A stretch of 36,459 bases of DNA, from positions 1 through 36,459 of IMG/VR virus record IMGVR_UViG_3300045284_000170; one strand, given 5' to 3'. The notes below the pieces were generated by a model, which was not told where the DNA came from, did no database searches, and saw only the letters and a list, made by a program, of their open reading frames with translations. The stretch comes from a virus. The translations under genes were made by a program, and so were the position numbers. Within the stretch, counting starts at the first letter, position 1; each line of letters opens with the position of its first letter. Shown here piece after piece: positions 117 through 33,276 of the stretch.

Positions 117-144
117 GACTCTCTTTCTGGTAAGCAGGGACAAC

Positions 145-241
145 AAAAATGAGAGGACTAGGGATCACAGCCCATCGAAAACTGTGATTCAACGGGTAGC
201 AACTTATCTGGTGCTACACCTTCGTGTCTCGTTTCCTCTCA
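145..241 (-). ncRNA. Structured leader RNA or small RNA with intrinsic-terminator-like end (L0)
   Basis: Read on the minus strand directly after the TATAAT of the motif at 240-265. The first bases (TGAGAGGA, 234-241) are perfectly complementary to TCCTCTCA at 150-157, which is followed at once by five T (145-149). Between the arms are possible hairpins ACAC-GAAG-GTGT (216-227), GTAGCA/TGCTAC (196-217, overlapping the previous one by two bases) and a 7-bp ATCACAG/CTGTGAT stem (164-188). The layout resembles a closed multibranch RNA ending in a U-tract, placed about 30 nt before the start of the gene cut by the left edge. Pairing is visible in the sequence. Whether it is a free small RNA, an attenuator or only a leader is inference. 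Confidence 0.5.
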
Positions 242-265
242 TTATAAAACATGCGTTTTCTGCGA
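240..265 (-). promoter_or_regulatory. Promoter-like motif copy 1 (P0)
   Basis: Minus-strand reading is TCGCA, then 14 bases holding GCAT, then TATAATG. TATAAT is a perfect bacterial -10 box, but the conserved upstream box is TCGCA rather than TTGACA and sits 14 bp away, closer than a normal -35. It lies between the terminator of the 316-570 gene and the structured leader of the left-edge gene. Confidence 0.7.
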
Positions 266-269
266 GGAC

Positions 270-306
270 AAAAATGACAATAGGGAAAATCCTTGCGGAT
301 CTCCCC
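270..306 (-). terminator. Intrinsic terminator of the 316-570 gene
   Basis: Minus strand: a 10-bp stem (two arms at 297-306 and 283-292, including G-U pairs) closed by a GCAA tetraloop, followed by TATTGTCATTTTTG. It starts just past the stop codon of the 316-570 gene and ends against promoter motif copy 1, separating the two units. Confidence 0.6.
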
Positions 307-315
307 CATTCGGGA

Positions 316-570
316 TCAGTTCATCGAAGCGTGAGCTTCCTGTTCGAACTTCTCGAGCTCGAGCGCTTTCGCCTTCTCCTCCTTGCGACGAGCGCGGGCC
401 TCCTTGATGCCAACGACGACTCCCATGACTACGTACGGTGCGACGCAAATCACCGTAGTTACGGCAATCGCGGCAGCGCCGATCACGAGGTTGTCCTTGA
501 CGGTCAATTCGTCCGCCTTCTTGTCCCAAAGTCGGGTCGGGACGTCCGCGACGATTTCGGTCGTGTCCAT
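316..570 (-). CDS. Small single-pass membrane protein
   Basis: An 84-residue protein starting at MDTTEIVADVPTRLWD. I chose ATG 570 because the AGGAG at 576-580 is five bases away; the adjacent ATG at 573 is only two bases away. A polar N-terminus (about 27 residues) is followed by one long hydrophobic helix (about residues 28-56) and a highly charged Lys/Glu/Arg-rich C-terminal tail that is probably a cytoplasmic helix or coiled coil. No family recognised. It has its own promoter-like motif (599-624) and its own terminator (270-306). An exclusion or membrane-remodelling role would fit many small phage membrane proteins, but nothing in the sequence shows this. Confidence 0.75.
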   Translation of the reverse strand: MDTTEIVADVPTRLWDKKADELTVKDNLVIGAAAIAVTTVICVAPYVVMGVVVGIKEARARRKEEKAKALELEKFEQEAHASMN

Positions 571-598
571 CATTACTCCTTGTTCGGTGTGTTTGATT

Positions 599-624
599 CC
601 ATTATAAGCCATGTAAACCCTGCG
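599..624 (-). promoter_or_regulatory. Promoter-like motif copy 2 (P2)
   Basis: Minus strand: CCGCA, 14 bases containing TTTACAT, then TATAATGG. The TATAAT ends about 30 nt before the ATG at 570, leaving a short leader with a clear AAGGAG. It follows directly on the terminator of the upstream 679-858 gene. Confidence 0.7.
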
Positions 625-631
625 GACATAA

Positions 632-662
632 CAAAAAGGAAAGCCTTGTCAGGGCCTTCCTT
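632..662 (-). terminator. Intrinsic terminator of the 679-858 gene
   Basis: Minus strand: a 10-bp stem (AAGGAAGGCC against GGCTTTCCTT, one G-U pair) with a 7-base loop, followed by TTTTTG. It lies between the stop at 679 and promoter motif copy 2. Confidence 0.7.
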
Positions 663-678
663 CTTGGATCGATGACTA

Positions 679-858
679 CTACCGGTGTGTCCGAACGCGG
701 TAGTCGACTTGACGGGCGTAGGCACGGCGCCCCTGAGACGCACTTCGCGCATCGATCAGCTTCGCCACCGCAGTGACGGCGATTGATGCAACGAGAATGC
801 ACTCCAACGGGTGCTGGTTCCACGCTTGCTTCAGTCGAAACTTCCAGTCGTTATACAT
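679..858 (-). CDS. Small single-pass membrane protein
   Basis: A 59-residue protein beginning MYNDWKFRLKQAWNQHPLEC. I chose ATG 858 because GGAAGGAAG lies just upstream; a longer frame reaching 900 would start inside the TATAAT box. One hydrophobic helix (about residues 18-35) is followed by a basic tail rich in Arg, with the sequence QGRRAYARQVDYRVRTHR at the end. No family recognised. Its promoter-like motif is at 888-913 and its terminator at 632-662. It is similar in architecture, though not in sequence, to the neighbouring products at 316-570 and 1602-1826. Confidence 0.7.
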   Translation of the reverse strand: MYNDWKFRLKQAWNQHPLECILVASIAVTAVAKLIDARSASQGRRAYARQVDYRVRTHR

Positions 859-887
859 GACTTCCTTCCGTTCGTAGGGTTTCTCTC

Positions 888-913
888 CATTATAAAGCAT
901 GTAAAACGTGCGC
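888..913 (-). promoter_or_regulatory. Promoter-like motif copy 3 (P3)
   Basis: Minus strand: GCGCA, 14 bases containing TTTACAT, then TATAATGG, 30 nt before ATG 858. It begins only a few bases past the stop of the 916-1431 gene. No terminator is visible between them, so that upstream gene may read through. Confidence 0.7.
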
Positions 914-915
914 TG

Positions 916-1431
916 TCAGTCGTCCAGCTCGATTTGGATCTTCCTCGCAAGAGTGAGTTGCATCGTTCCTTTGACCTTCGAAAGTTCAACGGATCGAAGA
1001 TCGTAGACCATCTTTCCCTCTACAACTTCGACGTTTTCAACTCTCGCGTAAAAGCCCGCAACGTGGAGGTGTCTGCCGGGCAGAACATTGTCCGACAGAA
1101 CAAGATCGATGCGCCTTTTCTCTTCTGCCGCCGTCTCGACCTTTGCCGTCTCGATGTACTTTCCGTACAAGCGAAGGACCTTAGTGTCGTCCGTCTCGCT
1201 CATGGGCTCCGTACGAACCGTTGCCGTAACGCCTGGATTGTACTTCTCGAGACTTCCTTTGTCTGCGTTGATGTTGCCACGACCCTTGGGCTCGTTTTCC
1301 AGAATCGTCTTTCCGACGTAGTACTCTCCTGGATGAGCCTTCAAGAATGCCACAAACTTTGGCTTCCAGGCATTCTCATTCGGTGGTTTTGCGCTTCTAA
1401 TGGGCGGAGGATCTTTTCGTTCGAATTCCAT
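916..1431 (-). CDS. Hypothetical soluble protein, 171 residues
   Basis: The largest gene of the left-end cluster, starting MEFERKDPPPIRSAKPPNEN at ATG 1431 behind GAGGAGAGG. No signal peptide or membrane helix is visible. The composition is mixed alpha/beta and charged, with alternating hydrophobic stretches such as TKVLRLYGKYIE and MVYDLRSVELSKVKGTMQLT that suggest strands. I do not recognise a family or a catalytic motif. It is preceded by the structured leader at 1461-1529 and promoter motif copy 4, and is followed with no clear terminator by motif copy 3. Function unknown. Confidence 0.75.
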   Translation of the reverse strand: MEFERKDPPPIRSAKPPNENAWKPKFVAFLKAHPGEYYVGKTILENEPKGRGNINADKGSLEKYNPGVTATVRTEPMSETDDTKVLRLYGKYIETAKVETAAEEKRRIDLVLSDNVLPGRHLHVAGFYARVENVEVVEGKMVYDLRSVELSKVKGTMQLTLARKIQIELDD

Positions 1432-1460
1432 TACCTCTCCTCAATAGGTGATAAAAACAC

Positions 1461-1529
1461 AAAAAGAGAACTGGTCATACGCTGAAGGTGCCAATTCATT
1501 AGCTATCTTCAACACATGAGTGTTCTCTC
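1461..1529 (-). ncRNA. Long-hairpin leader RNA or small RNA (L4)
   Basis: On the minus strand the segment right after the TGTAAT of motif copy 4 folds into one extended hairpin: AGAGAAC (1522-1528) with GTTCTCT (1465-1471), a small internal loop, 12 consecutive pairs (CATGTGTTGAAG with CTTCAGCGTATG), another internal loop and a 5-bp stem closed by TGAA. A run of T from 1465 follows, then GTGTTTT. It lies entirely between the promoter-like motif and the ribosome binding site of the 171-residue protein gene. The fold is seen in the sequence; attenuation or release as a small RNA is inference. Confidence 0.55.
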
Positions 1530-1554
1530 ATTACAATACGTGTTTTTCCTGCGA
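1529..1554 (-). promoter_or_regulatory. Promoter-like motif copy 4 (P4)
   Basis: Minus strand: TTCGCA, spacer with ACACGT, then TTGTAATGAGAG. It is the TGTAAT variant of the motif. It lies 98 nt upstream of ATG 1431, with the structured leader between. Confidence 0.65.
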
Positions 1555-1560
1555 ATATGA

Positions 1561-1595
1561 CAAAGAGAGAAGCCGTGTAAATTTGGCTTCCCTCT
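1561..1595 (-). terminator. Terminator-like hairpin after the 1602-1826 gene
   Basis: Minus strand: an 11-bp stem (AGAGGGAAGCC with GGCTTCTCTCT, one mismatch-like G-U) and a 10-base loop, followed by TTGTCATATT. The U-tract is weak, but the position between the stop at 1602 and motif copy 4 matches the other units. Confidence 0.5.
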
Positions 1596-1601
1596 CCCAG
1601 A

Positions 1602-1826
1602 TCACTCCTTGGGCGGAGCGGTGATCACGGTGACGGTCTTCTTGGAGCGCCGGCCCTCGTTCCAGCTCTTGATCTTGTTGCCGATGAAGTAGCCCGTTGC
1701 ACCGATACCGATCACAGCAGCAGCCAGTACGGCTACCCCTGCAATGGTCAGTGTCGTTTGCTGCTCCACGGCAACCTTCTCAATCGCATCGACGATCGGG
1801 TCGGTCAATTCCTCAACTTCGGCCAT
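1602..1826 (-). CDS. Small single-pass membrane protein
   Basis: A 74-residue protein starting MAEVEELTDPIVDAIEKVAV. ATG 1826 is nine bases from GGAG at 1836-1839; a TTG at 1832 in frame is only three bases away and less likely. An acidic N-terminus of about 27 residues precedes one Ala/Gly/Ile-rich membrane helix (about 28-50), then a basic tail (NKIKSWNEGRRSKK) that would sit in the cytoplasm. No family recognised. Promoter motif copy 5 is 35 nt upstream and overlaps the stop codon of the preceding gene; a hairpin terminator follows at 1561-1595. Confidence 0.75.
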   Translation of the reverse strand: MAEVEELTDPIVDAIEKVAVEQQTTLTIAGVAVLAAAVIGIGATGYFIGNKIKSWNEGRRSKKTVTVITAPPKE

Positions 1827-1860
1827 TACCAATGTCTCCTTCGCTTGATGGATGTGTCTT

Positions 1861-1886
1861 CATTACAATGGATGTAAATCTTGCGA
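1861..1886 (-). promoter_or_regulatory. Promoter-like motif copy 5 (P5), overlapping the preceding stop codon
   Basis: Minus strand: TTCGCA, spacer with TTTACAT, then TTGTAATG. The TAA stop of the 1863-2138 gene is formed by the TAA inside TGTAAT, so the last codons of that gene are also this motif. It lies 35 nt upstream of ATG 1826. Confidence 0.65.
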
Positions 1887-2138
1887 AGTGCCCTCCTCCT
1901 CTTCTTCGAATATCATTTCAAACAGATCGCCAACAGTCAATGAAGGTGCATCCGGGTACTCGAGATGCTTACAAATCATCATTACCCGAGCTGCTTTCAT
2001 CAATGCAGCTATGAGATCGTCATACTCTTCTTCGTGCAATCCCAATCTGGACTGCATCATACGACCAACGCTCTGAACTGTGTGCCCAACTTCGTGCATT
2101 AGATTGTCGTAGTCCTCTACGTATGGTTCTTTAACCAC
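1863..2138 (-). CDS. Small acidic protein with HEVGH motif
   Basis: A 91-residue protein from GTG 2138, five bases after AGGAGG, beginning (M)VKEPYVEDYDNLMHEVGHTV. Residues 15-19 read HEVGH, the form of the HExxH zinc site of many metalloproteases. However, the protein is very short, no third ligand is obvious, and the hit may be chance. The rest is helical with a Glu-rich stretch (FEEEEEG) before the end. Its C-terminal codons overlap promoter motif copy 5. Upstream are a three-way-junction leader (2160-2215) and motif copy 6. Function unknown. Confidence 0.7.
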   Translation of the reverse strand: MVKEPYVEDYDNLMHEVGHTVQSVGRMMQSRLGLHEEEYDDLIAALMKAARVMMICKHLEYPDAPSLTVGDLFEMIFEEEEEGTSQDLHPL

Positions 2139-2159
2139 TGGTTCCTCCTGTTGGACAAC

Positions 2160-2215
2160 AAAAAAGAGGGTAAGCGTTTCTCTTGCGAGTTTCGCTAGAC
2201 CTTTCGATCTCCCTC
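2160..2215 (-). ncRNA. Three-way-junction leader RNA or small RNA with GNRA loops (L6)
   Basis: Minus strand, starting at the base after TATAAT: GAGGG pairs with CCCTC (2166-2170). Inside are AGATC-GAAA-GGTCT, then AGCG-AAA-CTC-GCAA-GAG-AAA-CGCT, a hairpin with a symmetric AAA/AAA internal loop. Six T follow (2160-2165). Nearly every base is either paired, in a GNRA tetraloop or in the A-rich internal loop. That economy is typical of a selected RNA structure. It lies between promoter motif copy 6 and the GTG of the HEVGH protein gene. Terminator, attenuator or small RNA roles are all possible. Confidence 0.6.
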
Positions 2216-2240
2216 ATTATAAAACGTGTTTTTTCTGCGA
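2215..2240 (-). promoter_or_regulatory. Promoter-like motif copy 6 (P6)
   Basis: Minus strand: CTCGCA, spacer with ACACGT, then TATAATGAGGG. The bases after TATAAT are the first arm of the structured RNA at 2160-2215. Confidence 0.7.
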
Positions 2241-2246
2241 GGTAGC

Positions 2247-2272
2247 AAAAGGAGAATCCTTGCGGACTCTCC
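2247..2272 (-). terminator. Intrinsic terminator of the 2279-2518 gene
   Basis: Minus strand: a 9-bp stem GGAGAGTCC / GGATTCTCC (one G-U pair) with a GCAA tetraloop, followed by TTTTGC. It is located six bases past the stop at 2279 and directly before motif copy 6. Confidence 0.7.
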
Positions 2273-2278
2273 GATTGA

Positions 2279-2518
2279 TTATTGGGAAGTTGCTTTTGAC
2301 ATCAGAGCATTTAGCTCACGTTGTGCTTTGTCAAACGACGCCACAATTTCTTTGTAAGTCTCGCTGCTCAAGGTATCTTTGTTTTCCTCAAGCCTTGCTC
2401 TTGCTTTGGCAAGTCGCTCAAGGGTTTCATTGATTTCTTGAATCGCAAGATCACGTAGAAATGCGGCGGTCATTTGTGCAATCACAACGTTTTCTACTGT
2501 CTCTTCGTTGTCGGGCAT
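2279..2518 (-). CDS. Small helical, probably coiled-coil protein
   Basis: A 79-residue protein starting MPDNEETVENVVIAQMTAAF. ATG 2518 was chosen because AAAGGAGGAA precedes it by a few bases; the longer frame to 2593 would run through the promoter-like motif. The body is rich in Ala, Leu, Glu, Lys and Arg with heptad-like spacing (EINETLERLAKARARLEENK) and predicts as two helices, perhaps a coiled-coil hairpin. No family recognised. Motif copy 7 lies so close that its TGTAAT is only 13 bases from the start codon, which would leave a very short 5' leader. Terminator at 2247-2272. Confidence 0.75.
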   Translation of the reverse strand: MPDNEETVENVVIAQMTAAFLRDLAIQEINETLERLAKARARLEENKDTLSSETYKEIVASFDKAQRELNALMSKATSQ

Positions 2519-2530
2519 TGTTCCTCCTTT

Positions 2531-2556
2531 CATTACAATGAATGTAAAATATGCGA
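2531..2556 (-). promoter_or_regulatory. Promoter-like motif copy 7 (P7), very close to start codon
   Basis: Minus strand: GTCGCA, spacer with TTTACAT, then TTGTAATG running straight into AAAGGAGG and ATG 2518. A usual start seven bases after the box would fall inside the ribosome binding site. This is one reason to suspect that initiation is closer to the box, or that the motif acts differently from a sigma-70 promoter. Confidence 0.6.
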
Positions 2557-2560
2557 CAAG

Positions 2561-2584
2561 AAGAAAGTCCTTGCAGACTCTCCT
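2561..2584 (-). terminator. Terminator-like hairpin of the 2599-2784 gene
   Basis: Minus strand: AGGAGAGTCT-GCAA-GGACTTTCTT, about 9-10 pairs with G-U pairs and a GCAA tetraloop, followed by CTTGTC. It has the same loop and similar arms as the terminators at 2247-2272 and 270-306. The U-tract is poor, so efficiency is uncertain. Confidence 0.5.
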
Positions 2585-2598
2585 CCCAACCATTGCGA

Positions 2599-2784
2599 TT
2601 ATCGGGGTGGCTTCTTGTAATTCTCAAGTCCCCAGAGGGCGGCATCCAGCTCATCTCCATCGAGTTGCAGAGTGATGACTAGAGCGTTGTTATTCGCTTG
2701 ACGAATTCGCTCGGCCACGTTCGGCGTATCGATGTGGAACTGGTAGTCGCCTCCGACGACTTTATTGTTTGTAAAACCAGCCAT
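2599..2784 (-). CDS. Small hypothetical soluble protein
   Basis: A 61-residue protein beginning MAGFTNNKVVGGDYQFHIDT at ATG 2784, with GAAAGGAAGG upstream. It ends ALWGLENYKKPPR. Alternating hydrophobic residues in the middle (NALVITLQLDGDELDAALWGL) suggest a strand followed by a helix. No membrane segment or known domain is visible. It has its own motif copy 8 (TATAAT 23 nt upstream of the start) and a terminator-like hairpin behind it. Function unknown. Confidence 0.7.
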   Translation of the reverse strand: MAGFTNNKVVGGDYQFHIDTPNVAERIRQANNNALVITLQLDGDELDAALWGLENYKKPPR

Positions 2785-2806
2785 AACCTTCCTTTCGTTG
2801 TTGGTT

Positions 2807-2832
2807 CATTATAATACGTGTTAAATATGCGA
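2807..2832 (-). promoter_or_regulatory. Promoter-like motif copy 8 (P8)
   Basis: Minus strand: TTCGCA, spacer with ACACGT, then TATAATGAACC. TATAAT ends 23 nt before ATG 2784. Confidence 0.7.
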
Positions 2833-3022
2833 ACCATTAAACAGAAATCTTCCCCCGGGAAATTTTTAACCCTAAAAACCCCTATTTCGTCTGAGACCCC
2901 TCTATTTCGCCTCCTAAGACGTTTCATATCATTCCTGGTCAAGTGTCCCAGCTACCTTCTAGAAATGCCTTAGAAAGGAACACAGAGGCCTCATAAAAAT
3001 ATAGGAAGTGTAAAAATAAAGC
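2833..3022 (-). other. Non-coding gap with a short direct repeat
   Basis: With the motif and terminator on either side, this is the longest stretch without a convincing gene (2785-3095). It contains an imperfect direct repeat on the minus strand, CGAAATAGAGGGG and CGAAATAGGGGT, separated by GTCTCAGA (about 2882-2917). A frame of 87 codons crosses it but lacks a ribosome binding site and overlaps motif copy 8 and the following gene. I see no RNA gene here. Confidence 0.4.
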
Positions 3023-3074
3023 AAAAACACAGGAACCATGTAAAACTCTCTGTGAGTCTCACACAATTCCTGTG
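3023..3074 (-). terminator. Strong 21-bp hairpin terminator, probable end of the structural operon
   Basis: Minus strand: CACAGGAATTGTGTGAGACTC pairs base for base with the arm ending GGTTCCTGTG (21 pairs, five of them G-U) around an ACAGA loop, then TTTTTGCTTTATTTTT. It follows the stop of the 3096-3398 gene by about 20 bases. It is the first good terminator downstream of the long head-tail gene series, so it probably ends both that transcript and the unit started by motif copy 9. Confidence 0.75.
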
Positions 3075-3095
3075 CTTTCGCTAGATTCGGGCGTT

Positions 3096-3398
3096 TTATG
3101 GCGATTTGAACTTCGGGACGAAGCCCAAGGCTTTCGACGCGACGACATGCACGTGCTCGTATCCAACAATGATCAGAACCTGCACCACACCTCCGACGAC
3201 GATCAGAACTGTGTCTGCACTGAATCGTGACCAAAAGCCTTTTGGTTCTAAGGCCTTCATCTGATACAGTTTGTTCAGTTCTTCTAATCGTTTCTCGAAG
3301 TCTGGGTGATTCGGACCATCGTTGTCTATGACGAGCAGTAACTTGTCAATCGGTTCGTCAAGCTTGGACGGGCGTCCCTTCAAGTACTTTTCGAACAC
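3096..3398 (-). CDS. Small single-pass membrane protein, phage-conserved type
   Basis: A 100-residue protein. I chose GTG 3398 ((V)FEKYLKGRPSKLDEPIDKL) because AGAAAGGA lies six bases upstream; the longer frame from 3449 would begin inside promoter motif copy 9. The N-terminal half is charged and helical, followed by one membrane segment (about residues 62-82) and a short tail ending GFVPKFKSP. The pattern of an FEKYL-GRPSKLDEPID start plus one helix resembles small proteins I have seen in actinobacteriophages, but no function is known to me. It sits between the late operon and the small-gene cluster and could be read from both. Confidence 0.7.
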   Translation of the reverse strand: MFEKYLKGRPSKLDEPIDKLLLVIDNDGPNHPDFEKRLEELNKLYQMKALEPKGFWSRFSADTVLIVVGGVVQVLIIVGYEHVHVVASKALGFVPKFKSP

Positions 3399-3419
3399 AA
3401 GACATCCTTTCTCTAGTCT

Positions 3420-3445
3420 CATTATAAAAGATGTAAAGCTTGCGT
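3420..3445 (-). promoter_or_regulatory. Promoter-like motif copy 9 (P9)
   Basis: Minus strand: AACGCA, spacer with TTTACAT, then TATAATGAGAC. It abuts the stop codon of the 3446-3673 gene and lies 22 nt upstream of GTG 3398. It is the first copy after the structural operon. Confidence 0.7.
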
Positions 3446-4799: not shown

Positions 4800-5650
4800 T
4801 ATACCCCCCAATAAGCCGCATAATATTGCAAAGAACCCCAATTCAATTTAGGCAAAGTTACAATTTGAAATGTGTTAAATCCTGGAAATATAGTAGGCCA
4901 AATAGATCCTGGCTCGATTTTATCAAGCAAGTGTGTAGTAACTCCACCTCGAACCATATATAAATACCTATTAGTGTACTCGCTGCAGAAATACAAATGG
5001 TCTCCAATAACAAAACCAAAACCACCAGGAGTAACTTTAAAGGTCCACTCAGGATGAGTCGGATCGTCTTGAATGAGGAACGTTGTCGAAGGATCCGTAA
5101 ATATAACATCCATACTGAAACCATGTGGAGCAGTTGACATACTGTCAGGAACCATAATAGGATTAATAGAACTTAGATCTGTTGATTCCATCACCACAGG
5201 ATTAATAGCTCTAAACATCGGATCCTTACACACAATAGTAATTTGTGCTTCTGGTGTCTCTGTGAAATATGGCACTTCGAATTTACTGATAAAGCCTTCA
5301 ATTTTAGCAACTATCGTTGCACCAGAATTGAAATGCAATGTTACCAAACCCGCTCGAGTGGACGAGATGGTTTTATATAGTCTATCTCGTACGTCAGAAT
5401 ATGATTCGTCTATGTTGAATCGAGGATTAAGTACGACTCGTATAACGATTTCTCTTGATTTCATTGCGAAATCAAAAAACCTCGCCTTTGACTGCTTACC
5501 TGTACCGTAAAACCTTGGGACAAGTTCTTCAGCATCCAATCCGACAATTGTACGGACGATATACTGTCCCTGTGGTTCTACGTACTTCAAGCTAAACGTA
5601 AGTGGTTCTTCCAAGGAGGATGAATATAGCGATACATTCGTAACTCTCAT
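4799..5650 (-). CDS. Distal tail protein (Dit-like)
   Basis: A 283-residue protein from ATG 5650, overlapping the tape measure stop as ATGA, with GGAGGAA twelve bases upstream inside that gene. The N-terminal beta domain (VSLYSSSLEEPLTFSLKYVE, then GQYIVRTIVGLDAEELVPRF) and the middle region REIVIRVVLNPRFN fit the siphovirus distal tail protein family. The C-terminal half (about residues 150-283) looks like a separate beta-sandwich, possibly the galectin-like domain common in these proteins. Position between tape measure and the hub protein supports the call. Dit forms a ring joining the tail tube to the tip. Confidence 0.85.
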   Translation of the reverse strand: MRVTNVSLYSSSLEEPLTFSLKYVEPQGQYIVRTIVGLDAEELVPRFYGTGKQSKARFFDFAMKSREIVIRVVLNPRFNIDESYSDVRDRLYKTISSTRAGLVTLHFNSGATIVAKIEGFISKFEVPYFTETPEAQITIVCKDPMFRAINPVVMESTDLSSINPIMVPDSMSTAPHGFSMDVIFTDPSTTFLIQDDPTHPEWTFKVTPGGFGFVIGDHLYFCSEYTNRYLYMVRGGVTTHLLDKIEPGSIWPTIFPGFNTFQIVTLPKLNWGSLQYYAAYWGV

Positions 5651-8600
5651 GGTATCTTCAGTTCCTCCTTCGCTATTGTAATTTGATTACGAGTTTGCTT
5701 GTAAATATCCGCAGTAGATAGCTGTTCTGGAGCATTAATGGTTTGATGGAAGTTGACTTGACCAGTCGTTGGTGTAGTGCTGACTTGCGTACCGGCTTTT
5801 TGTGCATTAACACTAGCAGATATGACATTGGCATTATTAAGTGATGGTTTCAAAGCTTGTGCTGTCATAAGACTAGACATCTTAGCTGCTCCGGATTCAA
5901 TCGCACTCAAATCCAACGTTGGTTTAATAACGGGCTGAAGCTTTTCCAAATCATTAAGTTTATGGTACGCCGCTTCTAGTGCTCGCAACGCAGCATCTTG
6001 ACGGGCTGCATCTGCGGGAGTTCCAAACGTTGCAATCGTGTGATCTTCAGCCATGAACGTACGAGCATGCGCCAAGAAATTCTTACGAGCAGCGGTCCAT
6101 TCTGCTAGCGCTTTCGCTACTCCTTCTTTTGCAGCCATCTTATCAATGAGCGTTTTATTAGCGTTAGACCACCAAGCATCAAGCGTATCCCATTGTTTTT
6201 GCAAACCCATTTTCAAACCAACAACTATGTCTTCTCCAATCGCCATCATTACAAGAGAAGGCGAATGCGAATTCAGTGGTTCTTTAATACCTTTTGTTAT
6301 TTTATCCGGTATAGTTCTAATCCATTTAAAGAGTCCTCCAGGACCATCCCATATAGATTTCATACCATTCCAAAGACCTTGGATAATGTCCATCCCTATC
6401 TGTTCAAGCAAATGTATGGCGTCTGGGAAATTCTCTTTAATCTTTTTTGGTAAATTGAATAGCCAAGTACTCACACTTGCCCATATATCTGAAAGTCCTT
6501 GCCAAAGACCTCTAATAATATCTCCTCCAACGTTCAACAAAAACGTTATTGGATTAGGAATAAAGTTTTTAATTTTACCAGGAATACTTGTGATGAAACT
6601 CCAAGTCTGATTCCAAATAAATACTAGTCCATCCCAAAGCCCTTGAATGATGTCCTTACCAATATTAAGAAGCCAACCAATAGCATTAAGAAATATGCTA
6701 AGAATCTTGGTAGGAATAGTAACGTACCAAATCCAGAGAAGATTCCAAACAAACTGAAGTCCATCCCATAGACCTTGAAGGACTTTCTTACCAACATCAA
6801 GAAGCATGGTACCAGCATTAATAAAGAAGTTCAGAATTTTACCAGGAAGCGAACCGAACCAACTCAGTACTTGTCCAACCGTATCAACCAAACCTTGAAG
6901 CAATCCTAGAATAAGATCTGTACCAATACTAATAAACGACTTCGCAGGAGAATCGATACCAAACAAACTCTTAATCAGATCCAGAATCTTCCCTGGCAAT
7001 TCGGTGAAGAAATCTATCAACATATGCAAATTATTATTGAGTCCTTCTACAAATCCTTCAATGAAAGATATAGCAAGACTTGGGCCAAGTTCGCCCATCA
7101 TTCTTCCACTGTTTTTAGCTATACCCTTCATAACTTCAATAAACAAATTGGTTAGAGAATCAATAATGCGAGGAATTTCTTGCGCCATTGCATCAAGGAA
7201 ACCAACGATTATTTCTCCGACAATAACTACAATTTGCGGTATAGCCTGACGAATTCCATCAAGCAAAGATAGGATGATAAATATACCGGTCTTGATGTAC
7301 TCTTTGACATACGTTCTAACGACTTTAAGACCTTCTTCTATCAATTTACTAAACAACTTACCGACCTTTGGAACCAATTTAATAATCACATCAATGAAAG
7401 ATCCAAGAAGTTTTCCAGCCGCTGCTGCTATCTTTGGAGCTTGTTCTGCAATCAGAACAAATGAATCTATGAATCCTTGAACTATTTCCGCAACTAGCCT
7501 AGGAATTATTGTGGATATAACGCCAAGAGCCTCTACCGCAGATTCCGCTCCCTTCTTACCCATCTTAGAAAAGGTTTCTAGTGCCTTAGCTGCAAAATAT
7601 GCACCAGCACCCATTAGAGCAAAGCCGCCACCAATCAATAGCAAAGCAAGGCCAAGACCCTCCAATGCTGCGATAAGTCCTGATGCTGATAGAAGACCGG
7701 CAGCTGCTGCAAGAACACCTATAACCACAACCATTCCAAGCAAACCCTTTAACAAATCCGCAAATGGAATGGATGCAAAGGTTTTAAGAACGATCGCCAA
7801 CACTAGCAAAGCACCGGAAATCATCAATAGCGCTTGTGCACCTGGAACAGCTAGTTCCGCACCTTCCATAGCACCGATTAGAATACTCAAAATTACAGTC
7901 ATAGTTGTAACTGCTGTTAGAATTTGAGCAATAGACAACTTTGCAATAATTTCCATTGCCTTAGCCAATAGAAGAAGAGCGACAGATACAATTATTACAC
8001 CCTTAGCTTTTTGCTCCATCTTTTTTGGCATTTGTTTCATAGCTATAGCAATACCAAGAAGACCGAGAGTAGCTGTTCCAAGACCCTTGGCTAGCTGTTC
8101 GACGTCCATATCAGCGAACTTTCGAACTGCGAATCCAAGAACAATCAAAGCAAACGAAAGGTGTAGAACGGATAGACCTTTTCTATCTACATCATCTGGA
8201 ATGTAATTCAGGGCAAGAACAAGTGCTCCAATAGAACCTGCCGCAGCCCCAAGACCTTGCGCTAATGCTACCGGATCCATACCAGCAAATTTCTTTACTG
8301 CTATAGCAAGAATGTTTACAGAAATACCAAGTGCCAACAAAACAGTAGCAACTTTGTACATGTCCGGAAGCTTTTTCTTTAATAGATCTACAAAACCAAC
8401 AAATCCTAGAAGCATAGCTCCAACGCCAACCAAACCTCGTGCCAATTCATCCCAACTAAGACCGGACAACAGTCTTGCTGTACCAGCTAGAATAAATAGA
8501 GCACCGGATACGATGAGCAAAGCACCTGCCAGTACGGTGAATTTAATAACATCCTTTGCGCCGATATCCATCTTCTGAACCAGCGCAAACGCACCCATCA

Positions 8601-27646: not shown

Positions 27647-29407
27647 TTACACAGAGACAGGAATTGCGGCGGAATATGCTGCAGTTACTGATACGGCTGA
27701 TGCGCTCCAGTTATCCATATGAACGGGTCCACCGGTACTCGTAACTAAAAGACCGTGCTTTGTAGCTGTTGAATTATGACTATCGACAATGGTCTCCTGG
27801 AACACACCATTCAAATAAAAGCTAAGACTAGAACCAGTACAAACAACACGTAAGACATCGCCAGCGACAGCAGTTCCATGAGTTGAGCCCATGTTAGTTA
27901 CTACCCCAGCTACATTCTTACGAATCTTGGCTGCTATAGTTCCATCACCCACATAATACCAATAGTTGGATGTGTTTGAAAATCTGAAAACAATCCCAGC
28001 AGCATTACCAATAGTCGGAATAGTAATTGAAAGATCGACATCGGGAATGCCAAGCTCGAGTGTAGAGATAGCTCCGTTGATAGGACCGACCGTTGCCGGT
28101 GCACCCATGATGTAAGTATTAGAGTTGATCGAGCTTGTACCTTGTTGAAGAGTCCATGTTTGTGGATCGAGAGTGCCAGCACCATCAGTAGAACCAACAG
28201 AACCTGTTACGTTTGCTCGATTGAACGAATCTGTTGATAGCAACGATTTCGCTTTCCCAGCTCCGGTGTAAGAAGCTGATGCTTGCGATGCCAGCGCTGT
28301 ATAAATAGACGGAGTATTACCGACACTCAAGAGATTGTTACGAACAAACCAATAAACTCTAGGATACATATCAAAATTACCCAATTGTGACGGATGTGTT
28401 CCATCATCAAGTAATCCTGCTGCAATCTCTGCCGCATTCCCTACCCAACCATTCGACGACCACGCATCATAAAAATCCAACGGACCTTTAGCGCCAAGAG
28501 ATGTGGCGCTAGTCTTGGTTTGTGCTCTGTAACTAACTTGTTGTGCCAACAAATAAGTTCCAGGAGTCACTTCATATGGACTCATGAACGCAACTGGTCC
28601 AAGCGGAGAAGCTCTTGTATAAAGAAGACTTAAATCGGCCGCCCAATCTGTAACGCTGGCTCGTGCAATGTCATTGACATACATAGCAACAACGCCAATG
28701 TTTGGATGGGGAAGCGTTGGAGAACCAGTACCAGCTTTCACACTATCAATGATCGCCATTCGATCACCAGCAGTGCTAGTGAATGCGCTATGTAGAGCCG
28801 ATCCGTTTACTGCGTGGTTTTGAAGGATGAATCCGTCTGTAGCATTGGAATAAACCAACTCGATCCCGTGCAAACAGCCCAACACATCACTTGTGCCATT
28901 GAAGTGCCTCACATCCAGAGTGTTTGAGAATCCTGACGCAACCTTGAATGTCATCAACTTGTTGTCACCAAGCAGAGTCTGTCCAAAGTTCGTCCAAGTA
29001 CCCCCATCGAGACGATATTGCATGCCTCCACCACCAGCTAAATCAACAAAATACAATTGAAAGCCAATCGGAACACGATATAACGGAGGCTTTGTGAAAG
29101 TCCAAATGTCTGTCGCATGAGAACCTGTAGCACCACGTCCATCGGGCTGCTTATCATAAGCGTTGCCAGTAACAACAGCCGTAAAGCTTCCCGAACGAGA
29201 CCACATAGCACCAGAAGGAGCGCCGAAATTCCATACCGCAATAACACCACTGGAAATCAATGGACCAAAGCCATTAATGTTGGCAAGTCCTTCTCGTAAA
29301 AGTTCTGACCAAGATCCTTGTCCGCCTGAACTAATCGGATTATTAAAACCAGAAATACCAAGTCCAATCGTAACAGAATCTCCGAAAAGCGCAAGCGTTT
29401 TAATCAT
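27647..29407 (-). CDS. SGNH-hydrolase tail protein with C-terminal jelly-roll domain
   Basis: A 586-residue protein from ATG 29407, overlapping the fibre stop as ATGA. Residues 5-15 contain FGDSVTIGLG with the catalytic serine at 11, VNDIA near 245 supplies the Asn block, and DDGTHPSQLG near 335 supplies the Asp-x-x-His pair, so this is an SGNH/GDSL esterase. It probably removes acetyl or other ester groups from cell-surface glycans during adsorption. Residues about 388-572 (LSTDSFNRANVTGSVGSTDG to DNWSASAVS) are one copy of a jelly-roll-like domain present three times in the 1290-residue fibre. Confidence 0.85.
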   Translation of the reverse strand: MIKTLALFGDSVTIGLGISGFNNPISSGGQGSWSELLREGLANINGFGPLISSGVIAVWNFGAPSGAMWSRSGSFTAVVTGNAYDKQPDGRGATGSHATDIWTFTKPPLYRVPIGFQLYFVDLAGGGGMQYRLDGGTWTNFGQTLLGDNKLMTFKVASGFSNTLDVRHFNGTSDVLGCLHGIELVYSNATDGFILQNHAVNGSALHSAFTSTAGDRMAIIDSVKAGTGSPTLPHPNIGVVAMYVNDIARASVTDWAADLSLLYTRASPLGPVAFMSPYEVTPGTYLLAQQVSYRAQTKTSATSLGAKGPLDFYDAWSSNGWVGNAAEIAAGLLDDGTHPSQLGNFDMYPRVYWFVRNNLLSVGNTPSIYTALASQASASYTGAGKAKSLLSTDSFNRANVTGSVGSTDGAGTLDPQTWTLQQGTSSINSNTYIMGAPATVGPINGAISTLELGIPDVDLSITIPTIGNAAGIVFRFSNTSNYWYYVGDGTIAAKIRKNVAGVVTNMGSTHGTAVAGDVLRVVCTGSSLSFYLNGVFQETIVDSHNSTATKHGLLVTSTGGPVHMDNWSASAVSVTAAYSAAIPVSV

Positions 29408-32400
29408 GCTGGGAACTTCCTAATAGAGAATTGACGAAGACTTACGAACGATGAAGCATTACCCGTACCAAGAGTGGCTCTAAGATCGATTACTCTATCA
29501 AGTGTTGTATCAAATCCTGAGCCAAGACCACGACCTGCTGTGCCGTGTTCAAATTCCACAGGTGTAGCAAGAGCGCTTGGAACTGACATACTAAAATCAC
29601 CAGCAATGTTTGCAGCTCCTGTAGTACCAGAACCAATAGCAGCAACCGTATATGTTACTCGCATCGTCCAACGTCGTTGATTAGTCGAATCCAACGCTAA
29701 TGATGCTGTCAAATGTTCATATGCAACAGTCGGCATTGTAAGAGAAATAAGAACTGTACTGGCTGCAAACAATTTGCAAAGACCACCAGCAACAATTTCA
29801 AACGTGTCACCAACTCTCAGACTATTCGCAGGAATAGTGAACGTTGCTGCCAAAAGTGAAGTTGCTGCTGTCGGGTTTGTGAGTTGTGTTTGTGCAATAT
29901 CAACTGCGTACAACCTAGCCGGTGCTGGACGAAGTACTCGACAGTCAATAAGCTTTGCCAAACCGTTTGACGTCGTGAGAAGCGTGTCAACATTTGTAGC
30001 ATTAGCTGGTACATACAAAAACGCAAGCGGAACCCGTCCTACAGTTCGACTAGGAAATGCAGGATTAGCTGCGGCAGTACCTTGATTAAAGTTTATTGTA
30101 GTTACGCCGGTCGCTACAGACGCCTCGACAATCACCCATTTCGGATTGGTTGCGTTGGCAAGTGATGCAATAGTAGTAGAGATTGCACTCTGTGCCGCTA
30201 CCGTACATTCGTCTGTACCAATCTCAAGAGTTCCTGCGGCCAAATCAAGCTTTGTCGGTGTTGAATTCGGTGTAAGTTGGCAAGAAGTTGATCCTTCAAC
30301 CCCAACAACAAACCATCCACCCATAGCAGCTTGAGTAACTACGTTCTTTGCGGTACTCAACGCGGCTTGCGTCTGAAGATCATTCAGATCAGTCGTAAGG
30401 TTCGTGACATCCGACTCCGCAATGACACCCAGGTCAACCGTTGGATTACCAGCAACACCATTACCGTTTGTAACAGTAAGTTTAGCAGAACCAGCCGTCA
30501 GAGTTCGACCAGTAAACGTGTCCGTTGCTGTCTGAGTAAGTAGTCCCGCCGTGTTGTGTGCGGCAAGAGAAGTAAGTGTAGCATCCAGTGGTTGAACACC
30601 AAGACGGGTCCTAATTGTTGCTGGTGAGTAGTTCCGCCACTGAGGAGTGGTAGCAACACCAGATGCAGACCAAGCGTCAAAGTCCGTGGAACTCTGACCT
30701 GAAGAGAAACCAGCGCGGGTCGCTGATATATGGGTAGAATCAGTTCCTGTATATAGCTGAGTAGCATCACGATACACAGTGATCGTCGAACCATTCGCAA
30801 CGGCTCGCCACGTGCTATTATTAGGAGCGCCGGTTCCAGTAGTTCCAACTTGCGTGAATGTTCCAGCGACAACCTTGTAAAGTGACCAATTATTCGCATT
30901 AAATGGACCTGACATAGTAAGCATCCAGTAGTTGTTGGTGTCGATGTATCGGAAGATCAGTGCTCCAGCGATCAGATCAGTGATCTGAATTTGCACATCC
31001 ATATCCGATGTGCCGAGCGGAATCGTTGCGAAGCCACTACCAGTATTAGAGTTAGCTTGATTGGATAGAATGCCAATCGTGCCACCAGCGACCGTCCATG
31101 CCACTGGATCCAGCGCACCAGATCCATCTGTCGAACCAAGAACTGAGGCATTGTTTGCCCGGTTGAATGAGTCAGTCGAGAGCAATCCACCAGCACCACT
31201 GTCGTAAGACAACGTGTCACTCTGTGCAGGCGTAGAAATCGCGACATCGGATAGTCCGTCTAGATCAAGAGCAAGCGCCGCCTTGACCTGAGTTGGAGTT
31301 CTTGATGCCCATGCTCCGGCGACCGATTGAATCATGTTATCGGTTGTTGGAGTCAATCCAGCAATCGTTGTCAGATCCGAGTCAAGTGGTTGATACTGAG
31401 TTTGCGCTGAGGCTGTCCAATTATCAAAACGACCACTGGTACTCTCACTAATGAACCCAGCTTTTGTAGCCGTGTTAAACTGAGTGTCTGAAGTCGTTTC
31501 AATCTGAGTACCATTTCGATACACTGTAATTGTATTACCGCTACAAACAACTCGATGGACATCGCCATCAGCACCACCACTATGTCCAGTTCCGACATCA
31601 GTAATCGTTCCAGCAATAACCTTTGACAAGAAAGTCGTAGTTGAGCCACGTAGACACCAGTAATTTGCATGATCAACAACTCGAAAGATAATCCCGGTCG
31701 TACTGCCTGTACTAGGACCAACCACCAAAGTAATTGAAGCATCAAAATCTGCGGTACCCAAATCAACCGTTGCCATTGCTTTGAGACGACCGTCTATCGA
31801 TGTAAGTGCTGAAGCATACGCCTGATTTGTGTTAATCCCTATGGTTCCGGTCTCTGCCACCCAAGCTCTAGGATCACGTGACCCAGTACCATCGGTCGAA
31901 CCCATCGAACTTGTGTTGTCCGCTCGATTAAACGTATCTGTTGACAAAGACGAAAGCGCAAGGTCAGCTTTTAGTTGTGTAAGAGTTCGATTCGTCCATG
32001 CACCCGACTTACGTTGAATAACATCATCGTTTGCCGGAGCAATAGCGGCGATAACAGTAAGATCTGAATCAAGGGGCTGAGCACCAATTGTCGTGCGAGT
32101 CGCAGCCGCATCCGCTTGTGTCAGAAGACTACGACCAAACGTTGTAGTGTTTAATGCTGCGATAGCTGTAAGATCCGAATCAAGTGGTTGATAAATTGGA
32201 TCGGCCTTTATTGAGAAATTATCCCAACGCATTGCCGTGCCAGCGCCTTTGACAAACAACCCATGACTAGTTAGTGTTTGTCCATCGGTATTAGATACTG
32301 AACGTAGAAGAGCGCCATTCTTATAAATAGAAATGTTTGTTCCACTACAAACAACTCGAAGCACGTCTCCGTTGACAAACGCGCCGTCATCAGTTCCTAT

Positions 32401-33276
32401 TTGGTGATCGCCACCACCGCCAGAATAACCACGTACAGCAAGACGTCCGACCGCCGCAGTGTAATACCAAAGATTATTAAAATCTTGAAAACGCCAGCAT
32501 AGTCCTGCTCCGGTGCTTACAACAGAAAGCGTAACACTAATGTCGACATTAGGCTGTCCGACATCAAGAACTGCCATAGCATCTGAAAATGGATTCGCCG
32601 CAACATAAGCTTGATTACTGCTAATTCCAAAAGTTCCTTCAGGAACACTCCATGTCAATGAATCAAGCGTACCAGTTCCGTTTGTTGAACCAAGAGACAC
32701 AGTGCTATCGGCTCGGTTAAATGAATCAGTAGACAGAACTGTAATCAAATCAGCTTTCAATTGTGCAATGGTTCGATTAGTCCATACACCAGCTTTGCGT
32801 TGAATAAGATCATCGTTTGCTGGAGTCAAAGCACCAATGTCGATCAGATCCGAGTCAAGCGATCCACCAGATTGATCAACCCAATGCGTATCATAGTCTG
32901 TAGACGAATTCTTTGCTAGAACTTGTGCTGAGGTTCCTCCAGTAGGAACGCCTTGGCCGTTCGTGCCATTAGTTCCTGGATCTCCTTGCGGTCCGGGGAT
33001 GCCCTGAATGCCCTGAATGCCCTGAATTCCTTGCGGACCTGGCACCGTTGACGCAGCTCCGGTCGCTCCAGTCGCTCCAGGGGCCCCAGGAGGCCCTGTA
33101 GGGCCCGTAGGACCCTCTGGACCGGGAGGACCGGGATCCCCTGCCCCTGAGCCTGGCGGGCCCGTAGGACCCGGAGGACCGGGCAATGCGAGCACGGTAG
33201 CGGTTGGTACAGAAAGTAGTGAAACATGAACGACCGGCGGGTTATCTACAATGAATGTATCGATATGATACGTCAT
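29404..33276 (-). CDS. Long tail fibre with collagen stalk and three jelly-roll-like repeats
   Basis: A 1290-residue protein from ATG 33276, overlapping the previous stop as ATGA. Residues 1-31 are an anchor strand, 32-110 a collagen-like stalk with three QGI repeats. Then three copies of a roughly 175-residue domain, beginning LSTD(S/T)FNRA near 179, 442 and 696, are spaced by linkers of the (QP)LDSDLTxIAxLTPANDDxIQRKxGxW type. After residue 880 comes a beta-rich tip (GWFVVGVEGSTSCQLTPNST, then KWVIVEASVATGV) that probably meets the receptor. The repeated domain resembles concanavalin/LamG-like sugar binders (inferred). Probably the main receptor-binding fibre. Confidence 0.8.
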   Translation of the reverse strand: MTYHIDTFIVDNPPVVHVSLLSVPTATVLALPGPPGPTGPPGSGAGDPGPPGPEGPTGPTGPPGAPGATGATGAASTVPGPQGIQGIQGIQGIPGPQGDPGTNGTNGQGVPTGGTSAQVLAKNSSTDYDTHWVDQSGGSLDSDLIDIGALTPANDDLIQRKAGVWTNRTIAQLKADLITVLSTDSFNRADSTVSLGSTNGTGTLDSLTWSVPEGTFGISSNQAYVAANPFSDAMAVLDVGQPNVDISVTLSVVSTGAGLCWRFQDFNNLWYYTAAVGRLAVRGYSGGGGDHQIGTDDGAFVNGDVLRVVCSGTNISIYKNGALLRSVSNTDGQTLTSHGLFVKGAGTAMRWDNFSIKADPIYQPLDSDLTAIAALNTTTFGRSLLTQADAAATRTTIGAQPLDSDLTVIAAIAPANDDVIQRKSGAWTNRTLTQLKADLALSSLSTDTFNRADNTSSMGSTDGTGSRDPRAWVAETGTIGINTNQAYASALTSIDGRLKAMATVDLGTADFDASITLVVGPSTGSTTGIIFRVVDHANYWCLRGSTTTFLSKVIAGTITDVGTGHSGGADGDVHRVVCSGNTITVYRNGTQIETTSDTQFNTATKAGFISESTSGRFDNWTASAQTQYQPLDSDLTTIAGLTPTTDNMIQSVAGAWASRTPTQVKAALALDLDGLSDVAISTPAQSDTLSYDSGAGGLLSTDSFNRANNASVLGSTDGSGALDPVAWTVAGGTIGILSNQANSNTGSGFATIPLGTSDMDVQIQITDLIAGALIFRYIDTNNYWMLTMSGPFNANNWSLYKVVAGTFTQVGTTGTGAPNNSTWRAVANGSTITVYRDATQLYTGTDSTHISATRAGFSSGQSSTDFDAWSASGVATTPQWRNYSPATIRTRLGVQPLDATLTSLAAHNTAGLLTQTATDTFTGRTLTAGSAKLTVTNGNGVAGNPTVDLGVIAESDVTNLTTDLNDLQTQAALSTAKNVVTQAAMGGWFVVGVEGSTSCQLTPNSTPTKLDLAAGTLEIGTDECTVAAQSAISTTIASLANATNPKWVIVEASVATGVTTINFNQGTAAANPAFPSRTVGRVPLAFLYVPANATNVDTLLTTSNGLAKLIDCRVLRPAPARLYAVDIAQTQLTNPTAATSLLAATFTIPANSLRVGDTFEIVAGGLCKLFAASTVLISLTMPTVAYEHLTASLALDSTNQRRWTMRVTYTVAAIGSGTTGAANIAGDFSMSVPSALATPVEFEHGTAGRGLGSGFDTTLDRVIDLRATLGTGNASSFVSLRQFSIRKFPA
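33002..33028 (-). repeat. Three 9-bp tandem repeats in a collagen stalk
   Basis: Plus strand CCCTGAATG three times (the third reads CCCTGAATT), giving QGI repeats in the fibre stalk. A slippage-prone stretch that keeps the frame if units are gained or lost. Confidence 0.6.

Follow-up and report, generated by a model that had tools for sequence, protein, structure and literature searches.

A repeated one-strand promoter-like motif in a phage family that encodes a predicted two-barrel RNA polymerase

The left end of the IMG/VR virus record IMGVR_UViG_3300045284_000170 carries nine copies of a motif of fixed geometry, CGCA-N14-TRTAATG, all on the minus strand. The record is a linear fragment of 36,459 bases from a soil phage, without the replication arm, and is referred to here, at its full length, as the window. 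With a rough probability of 0.75, these nine sites are promoters recognized by a single-chain phage RNA polymerase (RNAP) of the protein family phrog_4291, acting alone or as the main determinant; its gene would lie in the part of the phage genome outside the fragment. A unit of about 31 bp, consisting of a T-rich stretch, TCGCA, ACA, TATAAT and GAGA, would be recognized whole at fixed spacing and with no need for a host sigma factor; the helix-turn-helix (HTH) domains at the N- and C-termini of the polymerase may mediate this recognition. RNA would begin at the G directly after TATAAT, which would place the box at about -6 to -1. Each promoter would then drive one short unit that ends in a hairpin terminator and whose product is either a structured small RNA or a small protein, often of membrane type.

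The nine exact matches lie at positions 240, 600, 888, 1529, 1861, 2215, 2531, 2807 and 3420 (P1 to P9), against a chance expectation of 0.01 estimated from 100 dinucleotide shuffles, in which the highest count was 1. The initial annotation had described these copies and their constant spacing, and its left ends stand except for the copy given as 599, which is corrected to 600. Its statement that no copy occurs elsewhere in the window also holds: a weight matrix trained on other contigs recovered the nine known sites and no tenth in 36 kb, even at a low threshold. As described, RCAY occupies a fixed position in the spacer of the window copies, and TRTAAT is always followed by G and then a purine. 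The base 5' of CGCA had been given as T or C, and it is indeed T in six copies and C in one, but G at 888 and A at 3420. The TRTAAT box reads TGTAAT in three of the nine copies (P4, P5 and P7). One copy had been assigned to each small gene; this holds for six copies, each with a small gene 13-35 bases further on, whereas the other three (240, 1529 and 2215) each lead into a structured non-coding RNA that has a terminator of its own, with a further open reading frame (ORF) downstream in two cases.

The same motif recurs across a family of phages. A 14-base version matched at least 120 stretches in IMG/VR, many of which carry 3-11 same-strand copies. Among the matches listed, 206 sites gave a logo that spans about 34 bases (T-rich, TCGCA, RRAWTT, ACA, YGSCY, TATAAT, GAGA, CCCC) and contains no -35 signal. 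Because these sites had been selected on CGCA and TATAAT, a second scan, of 37 related genomes, used a matrix that ignored the TATAAT columns. Copies were not scattered at random: 370 sites were found on the dominant strand, four on the other strand and six in shuffled genomes. The box nevertheless emerged from this blind scan with frequencies of T.97, A.89, T.96, A.92, A.86 and T.95, followed by G (.89) or A (.11). Across this large family, a genome has 3-22 copies of the motif, which keep to one strand and are mostly intergenic; in annotated genomes, the intergenic position holds for nearly all copies. For example, Gordon has 10 copies, TieDye 11, Kenosha 9, Circum 9, LibertyBell 8, Eevee 7 and saliva phage D_HF4_2 6, counted at a matrix score of 14 or more in stretches of up to 50 kb (Gordon excepted). 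Carriers include phages of Arthrobacter, Gordonia, Streptomyces, Rhodococcus and Curtobacterium, and variants occur in phages of Lactococcus and Faecalibacterium. One motif-rich IMG/VR record is Arthrobacter phage Gordon of cluster AU, and another is apparently Rhodococcus phage ReqiPoco6. In the Gordon sequence NC_041952, sites lie between 30015 and 34590 and at 54252, and small RNAs are predicted behind the promoters at 31503, 31597 and 31745.

The window itself encodes a capsid-protease fusion (phrog_3270), TerL, portal, tail and tail-fibre genes. By capsid, the named phages closest to it are those of Streptomyces, Gordonia and Arthrobacter, at about 50-55% identity, and its closest TerL relatives, records G051 and G052 (88-89% identity), both carry a motif array and a phrog_4291 polymerase. 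A scan of host genomes for motif-bearing prophages yielded five scattered contigs of metagenome-assembled genomes (MAGs), whose host identity was uninformative. In one of them, the Blautia MAG contig JAFVGK010000031.1 from a gut Firmicutes metagenome (L249, locus 4954-5700), three motif copies were observed, one of them followed by a structured RNA of 132 nt; this contig is probably a family phage.

The presence of the array is linked to that of the polymerase gene. Among 65 IMG/VR records chosen by motif match alone, nearly all of at least 30 kb, phrog_4291 is present in 43 of the 49 records with two or more motif copies and in 2 of the 16 with one (Fisher p 6e-8). The multi-copy records that lack it (32-46 kb) all have the family capsid, and the 14 single-copy records that lack it have no family capsid either; the array therefore marks the family. 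In these 65 records it is confined to genomes of the phage family that has the enzyme, with the polymerase or the family capsid found in every multi-copy record.

The phrog_4291 protein is about 900 amino acids long, contains a DFDGD motif, and is found in about 250 named phage records, almost the same ones that carry the family capsid. It is annotated there as 'helix-turn-helix protein', 'hypothetical protein' or 'RNA-dependent RNA polymerase' (RdRP), the last being the label of Gordon gp88, which has HTH matches near both ends. The sequence SGADFDGD is invariant in 69 homologs and contains the DxDxD metal-binding signature of a double-psi beta-barrel; a weak Pfam RdRP match covers the same region. 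Searches of the sequence against solved structures gave no useful homology. An AlphaFold model built from the 69 sequences reached a predicted local distance difference test (pLDDT) score of 83 and a predicted template modelling (pTM) score of 0.74; an earlier model with a pLDDT of 70 had given one fold match, and the comparison became productive only after the 69-sequence alignment. In Foldseek, the model matched QDE-1 (E 2e-10, probability 1.00), P74-26 gp62 (8e-8), P23-45-type gp64 (2e-7) and plant RDR2, and all 18 matches below 1e-3 in the PDB were QDE-1, RDR2 or phage gp62/gp64 polymerases. By predicted fold, phrog_4291 is thus a member of the two-barrel single-chain RNA polymerase superfamily, and DNA-dependent RNA synthesis is its predicted activity. 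Directly behind the polymerase, all genomes compared encode phrog_4303, a protein of 86-91 amino acids (in Gordon, gp89 at L252:7939-8214) that may be a partner of the polymerase. Two candidates in the window were rejected: the 1290-amino-acid ORF at 29404-33276 is not a polymerase but a collagen-repeat tail fibre, and the ORF at the right edge is not phrog_4303, an identity that would have put the polymerase just outside the window. Several such collagen-repeat tail-fibre genes occur in the window phage (35490-36098, 29404-33276 and 25252-26091 (-)). A T7-type polymerase (PF00940) gave no match in 51 records, in a search that lacked a working positive control.

A promoter of this type also precedes the polymerase gene. 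Sites with a matrix score of 0 or more lie upstream of the polymerase start at 33 of 56 loci, against 1 of 56 on the opposite strand, and inspection adds more. The distance to the polymerase start has a median of 900 bp (interquartile range 889-948), and these promoters form a subtype of their own, TATAATAGAAGG, with extra conservation observed upstream (ATATT-like) and downstream (GTAGAATG-like) across loci L301-L380. In Gordon and Circum, the subtype promoter precedes an operon of VRR-nuclease, exonuclease and polymerase. This position suggests that the polymerase probably transcribes its own gene, so that its expression would be self-amplifying; host promoters, read-through or injected enzyme are candidates for the first round.

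The position of the transcription start can be approached through the small RNAs. Those at 240, 1529 and 2215 (144-240, 1460-1529 and 2163-2215, minus strand) fold stably (z -3.9, -4.7 and -2.8), and in all three the first bases after TATAAT pair with a 3' arm right before the T run (GAGAGGA/TCCTCTC, GAGAGAAC/GTTCTCTT and GAGGG/CCCTC, respectively). Such a stem, closing the 5' arm with the terminator, was found at 65 of 650 promoter sites (32 strong), compared with 11-14 (1-2 strong) when positions were shifted and 14-27 (0-3 strong) when 5' ends were swapped. Most of the stems have their first base at the G that follows the box or 1-3 bases ahead of this G. In six homologous sequences of the 240 RNA family, the window copy among them, compensatory changes preserve the closing stem, with pair 5 as G-C or A-T, pair 6 as G-C or A-T, and pair 7 as A-T or T-A where paired. 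Because the 5' stem starts right after TATAAT and would be removed by a start 6-8 bases downstream, this indirect evidence points to the G directly after the box as the start, in agreement with the initial annotation, which had expected starts at or just after the invariant G. Similarly, the Shine-Dalgarno sequence of the P7 gene, AAAGGAGG, adjoins the predicted start and would be cut by a start 6-8 bases further on.

The 240 RNA belongs to a family of small RNAs of about 85-120 nt that begin at the promoter and share the core AGACAC..GTGT, GGG(C)TGTGAACCCTAG and the covarying closing stem. Besides the window copy (144-240, minus strand), its members are L117:2314, L200:2789, L225:5364, L243:871 and L289:19415, all in the same place behind a promoter. 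The window small RNAs had no match in Rfam or ARAGORN. Elsewhere, tRNA-like genes lie directly behind the promoter at L279:11134 (G111), L233:2668 (apparently ReqiPoco6) and L254:2910 (oengus), two of the three enclosed in a longer hairpin with a T run at its end. In Streptomyces and Gordonia phages (L256, L257 and L260), a short inverted repeat surrounds promoters, for example GTTAGGGGTCTC...GAGACCCCTAAC, so that pairing is possible between the end of a unit and the start of the one that follows.

The resemblance of TATAAT to a bacterial -10 element raises the question of host transcription. One alternative is that host RNAP with its main sigma factor reads TATAAT as the -10, while a phage activator bound at TCGCA/ACA replaces the -35 contact, in the manner of T4 MotA/AsiA. 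It would account for the perfect TATAAT at most sites, for the lack of a -35, for a CGCA box placed like the T4 MotA box relative to the -10, and for the many small HTH proteins annotated in family phages. The absence of a conserved -35 box, already stated in the initial annotation, extends over 696 sites: none has 5-6 matches to TTGACA 16-18 bp upstream, no better than at control spacing, and the extended -10 TGn, present at 30 of 696, is not enriched. However, the box drifts with the phage, to CTTTAT in Faecalibacterium phage oengus, where the CGC-N8-CA spacing is unchanged, to TTTAAT in Curtobacterium phage Eevee, and to TTAAAT or TTAGAT in G058. In a sigma -10, no position matters more than the second. 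Instead of a near-invariant A at this position, G is found in three of nine window copies (TGTAAT) and T in Eevee, G058 and the Faecalibacterium phage. Lactococcus phage P078 keeps TTACAYACCCTATAATGARAGG and has TTTTA instead of TCGCA, that is, the same right half as in phages of actinobacteria behind a different upstream box. A sigma-type start 6-8 bases past the -10 also disagrees with the small-RNA 5' stems, which begin at the base after the box and would put the start too near for a sigma-type -10. Furthermore, among the genes common to all ten compared genomes, the polymerase is the only protein with recognized HTH domains, and no MotA/AsiA-like gene was found among the conserved core genes, the only genes scanned. 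Box drift, the missing -35 and the start position together make a host sigma promoter a poor fit, and transcription by host RNAP with an activator is accordingly unlikely.

Several observations weigh against recognition by the phrog_4291 polymerase. Its gene is absent from the window. The motif and the polymerase are both family-wide, so their co-occurrence cannot single out the polymerase among about 20 shared core genes. In a partial Mantel test over all 34 genomes, motif distance follows RNAP divergence given DNA polymerase (r 0.30, p 0.01); without the Lactococcus and Faecalibacterium phages, the RNAP signal is lost and DNA polymerase does equally well or better. The template modelling scores (TM-scores) of the model to solved polymerases are low (0.24-0.33) and the domain arrangement differs, which limits the claim for phrog_4291 to superfamily membership, short of close kinship; profile comparison with YonO detected no sequence similarity (hhalign probability 2.9%). 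Most sites still read TATAAT, and given this the host polymerase may make some use of them. Finally, a third of the stems are offset by -3 to -1, so that the start is placed only to within about 3 bases.

A further possibility is that the sites are promoters of the phage polymerase but that a distinct specificity factor of the phage, for example phrog_4303, recognizes them. This protein adjoins the polymerase in the genomes compared, and over all genomes motif distance correlates with its divergence given RNAP (r 0.25, p 0.014). This correlation loses significance once the two outlier phages are removed, phrog_4303 has no recognizable DNA-binding domain, and the polymerase itself has HTH domains at both ends; a separate factor is therefore quite improbable. 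A non-promoter role, as an operator or other protein-binding site or as an RNA processing or translation element before small genes, has a parallel in the repeated intergenic motifs without assigned role that are common in actinophages of clusters EC, EF, EG and EI (PMC7302621), but is highly improbable given the strict one-strand orientation, the position of sites behind a terminator and ahead of a gene or small RNA, the TATAAT-like melting box followed by purines, and the RNA stems that begin at the end of the motif.

The initial annotation had proposed a regulon of like promoters under a phage-encoded factor, which is well supported. Among the options it listed, a phage polymerase fits best, because the family has a single-chain two-barrel RNAP, the '-10' drifts, and RNA structure would set the start right after the box. 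A host-type sigma promoter is a poor match, whether it acts by itself, with an activator or under a repressor. Beyond the identity of the reader, it is reasonably probable that phrog_4291 represents a distinct branch of self-sufficient single-chain two-barrel RNAPs. Such enzymes would read a promoter of about 31 bp unaided, melt a TATAAT-like box directly upstream of the start, transcribe an array of one-gene units that include many structured small RNAs and some tRNAs, operate in phages of two bacterial phyla, and drive their own expression autocatalytically.

Known systems share some of these features. T7-type promoters have a start region that reads GGGAGA. Like them, the motif described here would form one continuous unit of about 25-30 bp that ends at the start base and is followed by purines (GAGA); the polymerase, however, belongs to the two-barrel and not the T7-type superfamily. 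As in T4 middle promoters (MotA box and TATAAT), a perfect -10-like box is combined with a fixed upstream box that replaces the -35, but the start deduced here lies directly after the box and not 6-8 bases later. The Thermus phage polymerases P23-45 gp64 (nvRNAP) and P74-26 gp62 are two-barrel single-chain RNAPs with their own promoter motifs, and P23-45 also has a virion polymerase (PMC10770324). Two-barrel phage polymerases with cognate motifs thus have a precedent in P23-45 (PMC10770324), and the similarity extends to a repeated motif upstream of phage starts, the lack of a host sigma and the fold matches of phrog_4291 to both enzymes. In contrast, no sequence similarity to them was found, phrog_4291 has about 900 amino acids versus about 600, and it has HTH domains at both ends. 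The P23-45 motifs, described as one AT-rich and one GC-rich, can be set beside the present motif by description only. YonO of Bacillus phage SPbeta is likewise a single-chain phage polymerase with a two-barrel catalytic site that transcribes phage genes, and its promoter sequence was left open in 2017 (PMC5467207). Unlike the many short units seen here, SPbeta has one long late operon transcribed from one start, and no copy of the motif was found in the yonO-yonK region or in 50 kb of SPbeta.

Other actinophages also place short repeats of one orientation ahead of small genes, namely the SAS/ESAS of cluster K, the repeats of clusters EC/EG/EI, and stoperators (PMC7302621; PMC13313380). The printed sequences are unrelated; those repeats are 13-18 bp long (EI: 30), lie at ribosome sites or are inverted repeats or repressor sites, and do not have the box pair and its geometry (PMC7302621; PMC13313380). 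No earlier report of a motif of the CGCA-N14-TRTAATG type was found in the open-access literature, and in the 2017 description of the Gordon genome the words promoter, motif and RNA polymerase are absent (PMC5513430).

Within the window, the array runs on the minus strand from P9 to P1, and its DNA showed no similarity to named phages. The first unit comprises P9 (3415-3445, core 3420-3444, predicted start G3420), a gene for 100 amino acids with a GTG start (3096-3398, phrog_5818) and a terminator-like hairpin with a T run (3028-3074). Its product belongs to the family of Gordon gp34, which likewise lies behind the first promoter of the Gordon array. P8 (2802-2832, core 2807-2831, predicted start G2807) precedes a gene for 61 amino acids (2599-2784). 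P7 (2526-2556, core 2531-2555, predicted start G2531) precedes the gene for 79 amino acids (2279-2518) that has its Shine-Dalgarno sequence directly behind the predicted start, and a terminator hairpin, GGAGAGTCC-GCAA-GGATTCTCC with a T run (2251-2272), stands just ahead of P6. P6 (2210-2240, core 2215-2239, predicted start G2215) is followed by its small RNA and, 3' of it, by an ORF of 91 amino acids (1863-2138). P5 (1856-1886, core 1861-1885, predicted start G1861) precedes a gene for 74 amino acids (1602-1826), by inspection a putative membrane protein, and a terminator-like hairpin, GAAGCC...GGCTT (1570-1590), was identified by inspection ahead of P4. P4 (1524-1554, core 1529-1553, predicted start G1529) is followed by its small RNA and an ORF of 171 amino acids (916-1431). 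P3 (883-913, core 888-912, predicted start G888) precedes a gene for 59 amino acids (679-858, phrog_18827), and inspection placed a further terminator-like hairpin, GGAAGGCCC...GGCTTTCC with a T run (638-660), ahead of P2. P2 (595-625, core 600-624, predicted start G600) precedes a gene for 85 amino acids (316-573), again a putative membrane protein by inspection, which is separated by a terminator-like hairpin (279-310) from P1 (235-265, core 240-264, predicted start G240) and its small RNA.

If recognition by the phrog_4291 polymerase is correct, this would be the first promoter code proposed for its enzyme family. The code would turn a row of uncharacterized small genes into a defined regulon and predict dozens of unannotated small RNAs together with their ends. 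It would also bear on a question left for YonO-type enzymes, namely at which sequence they start and whether they need help to do so; these enzymes have been proposed to be related to the ancestor from which all cellular polymerases descend (PMC5467207). As a compact pair that is orthogonal to the host, the polymerase and its promoter would be a potential tool for Arthrobacter, Gordonia, Streptomyces and Rhodococcus, and the match between polymerase and motif can be tested directly in cultivated phages.

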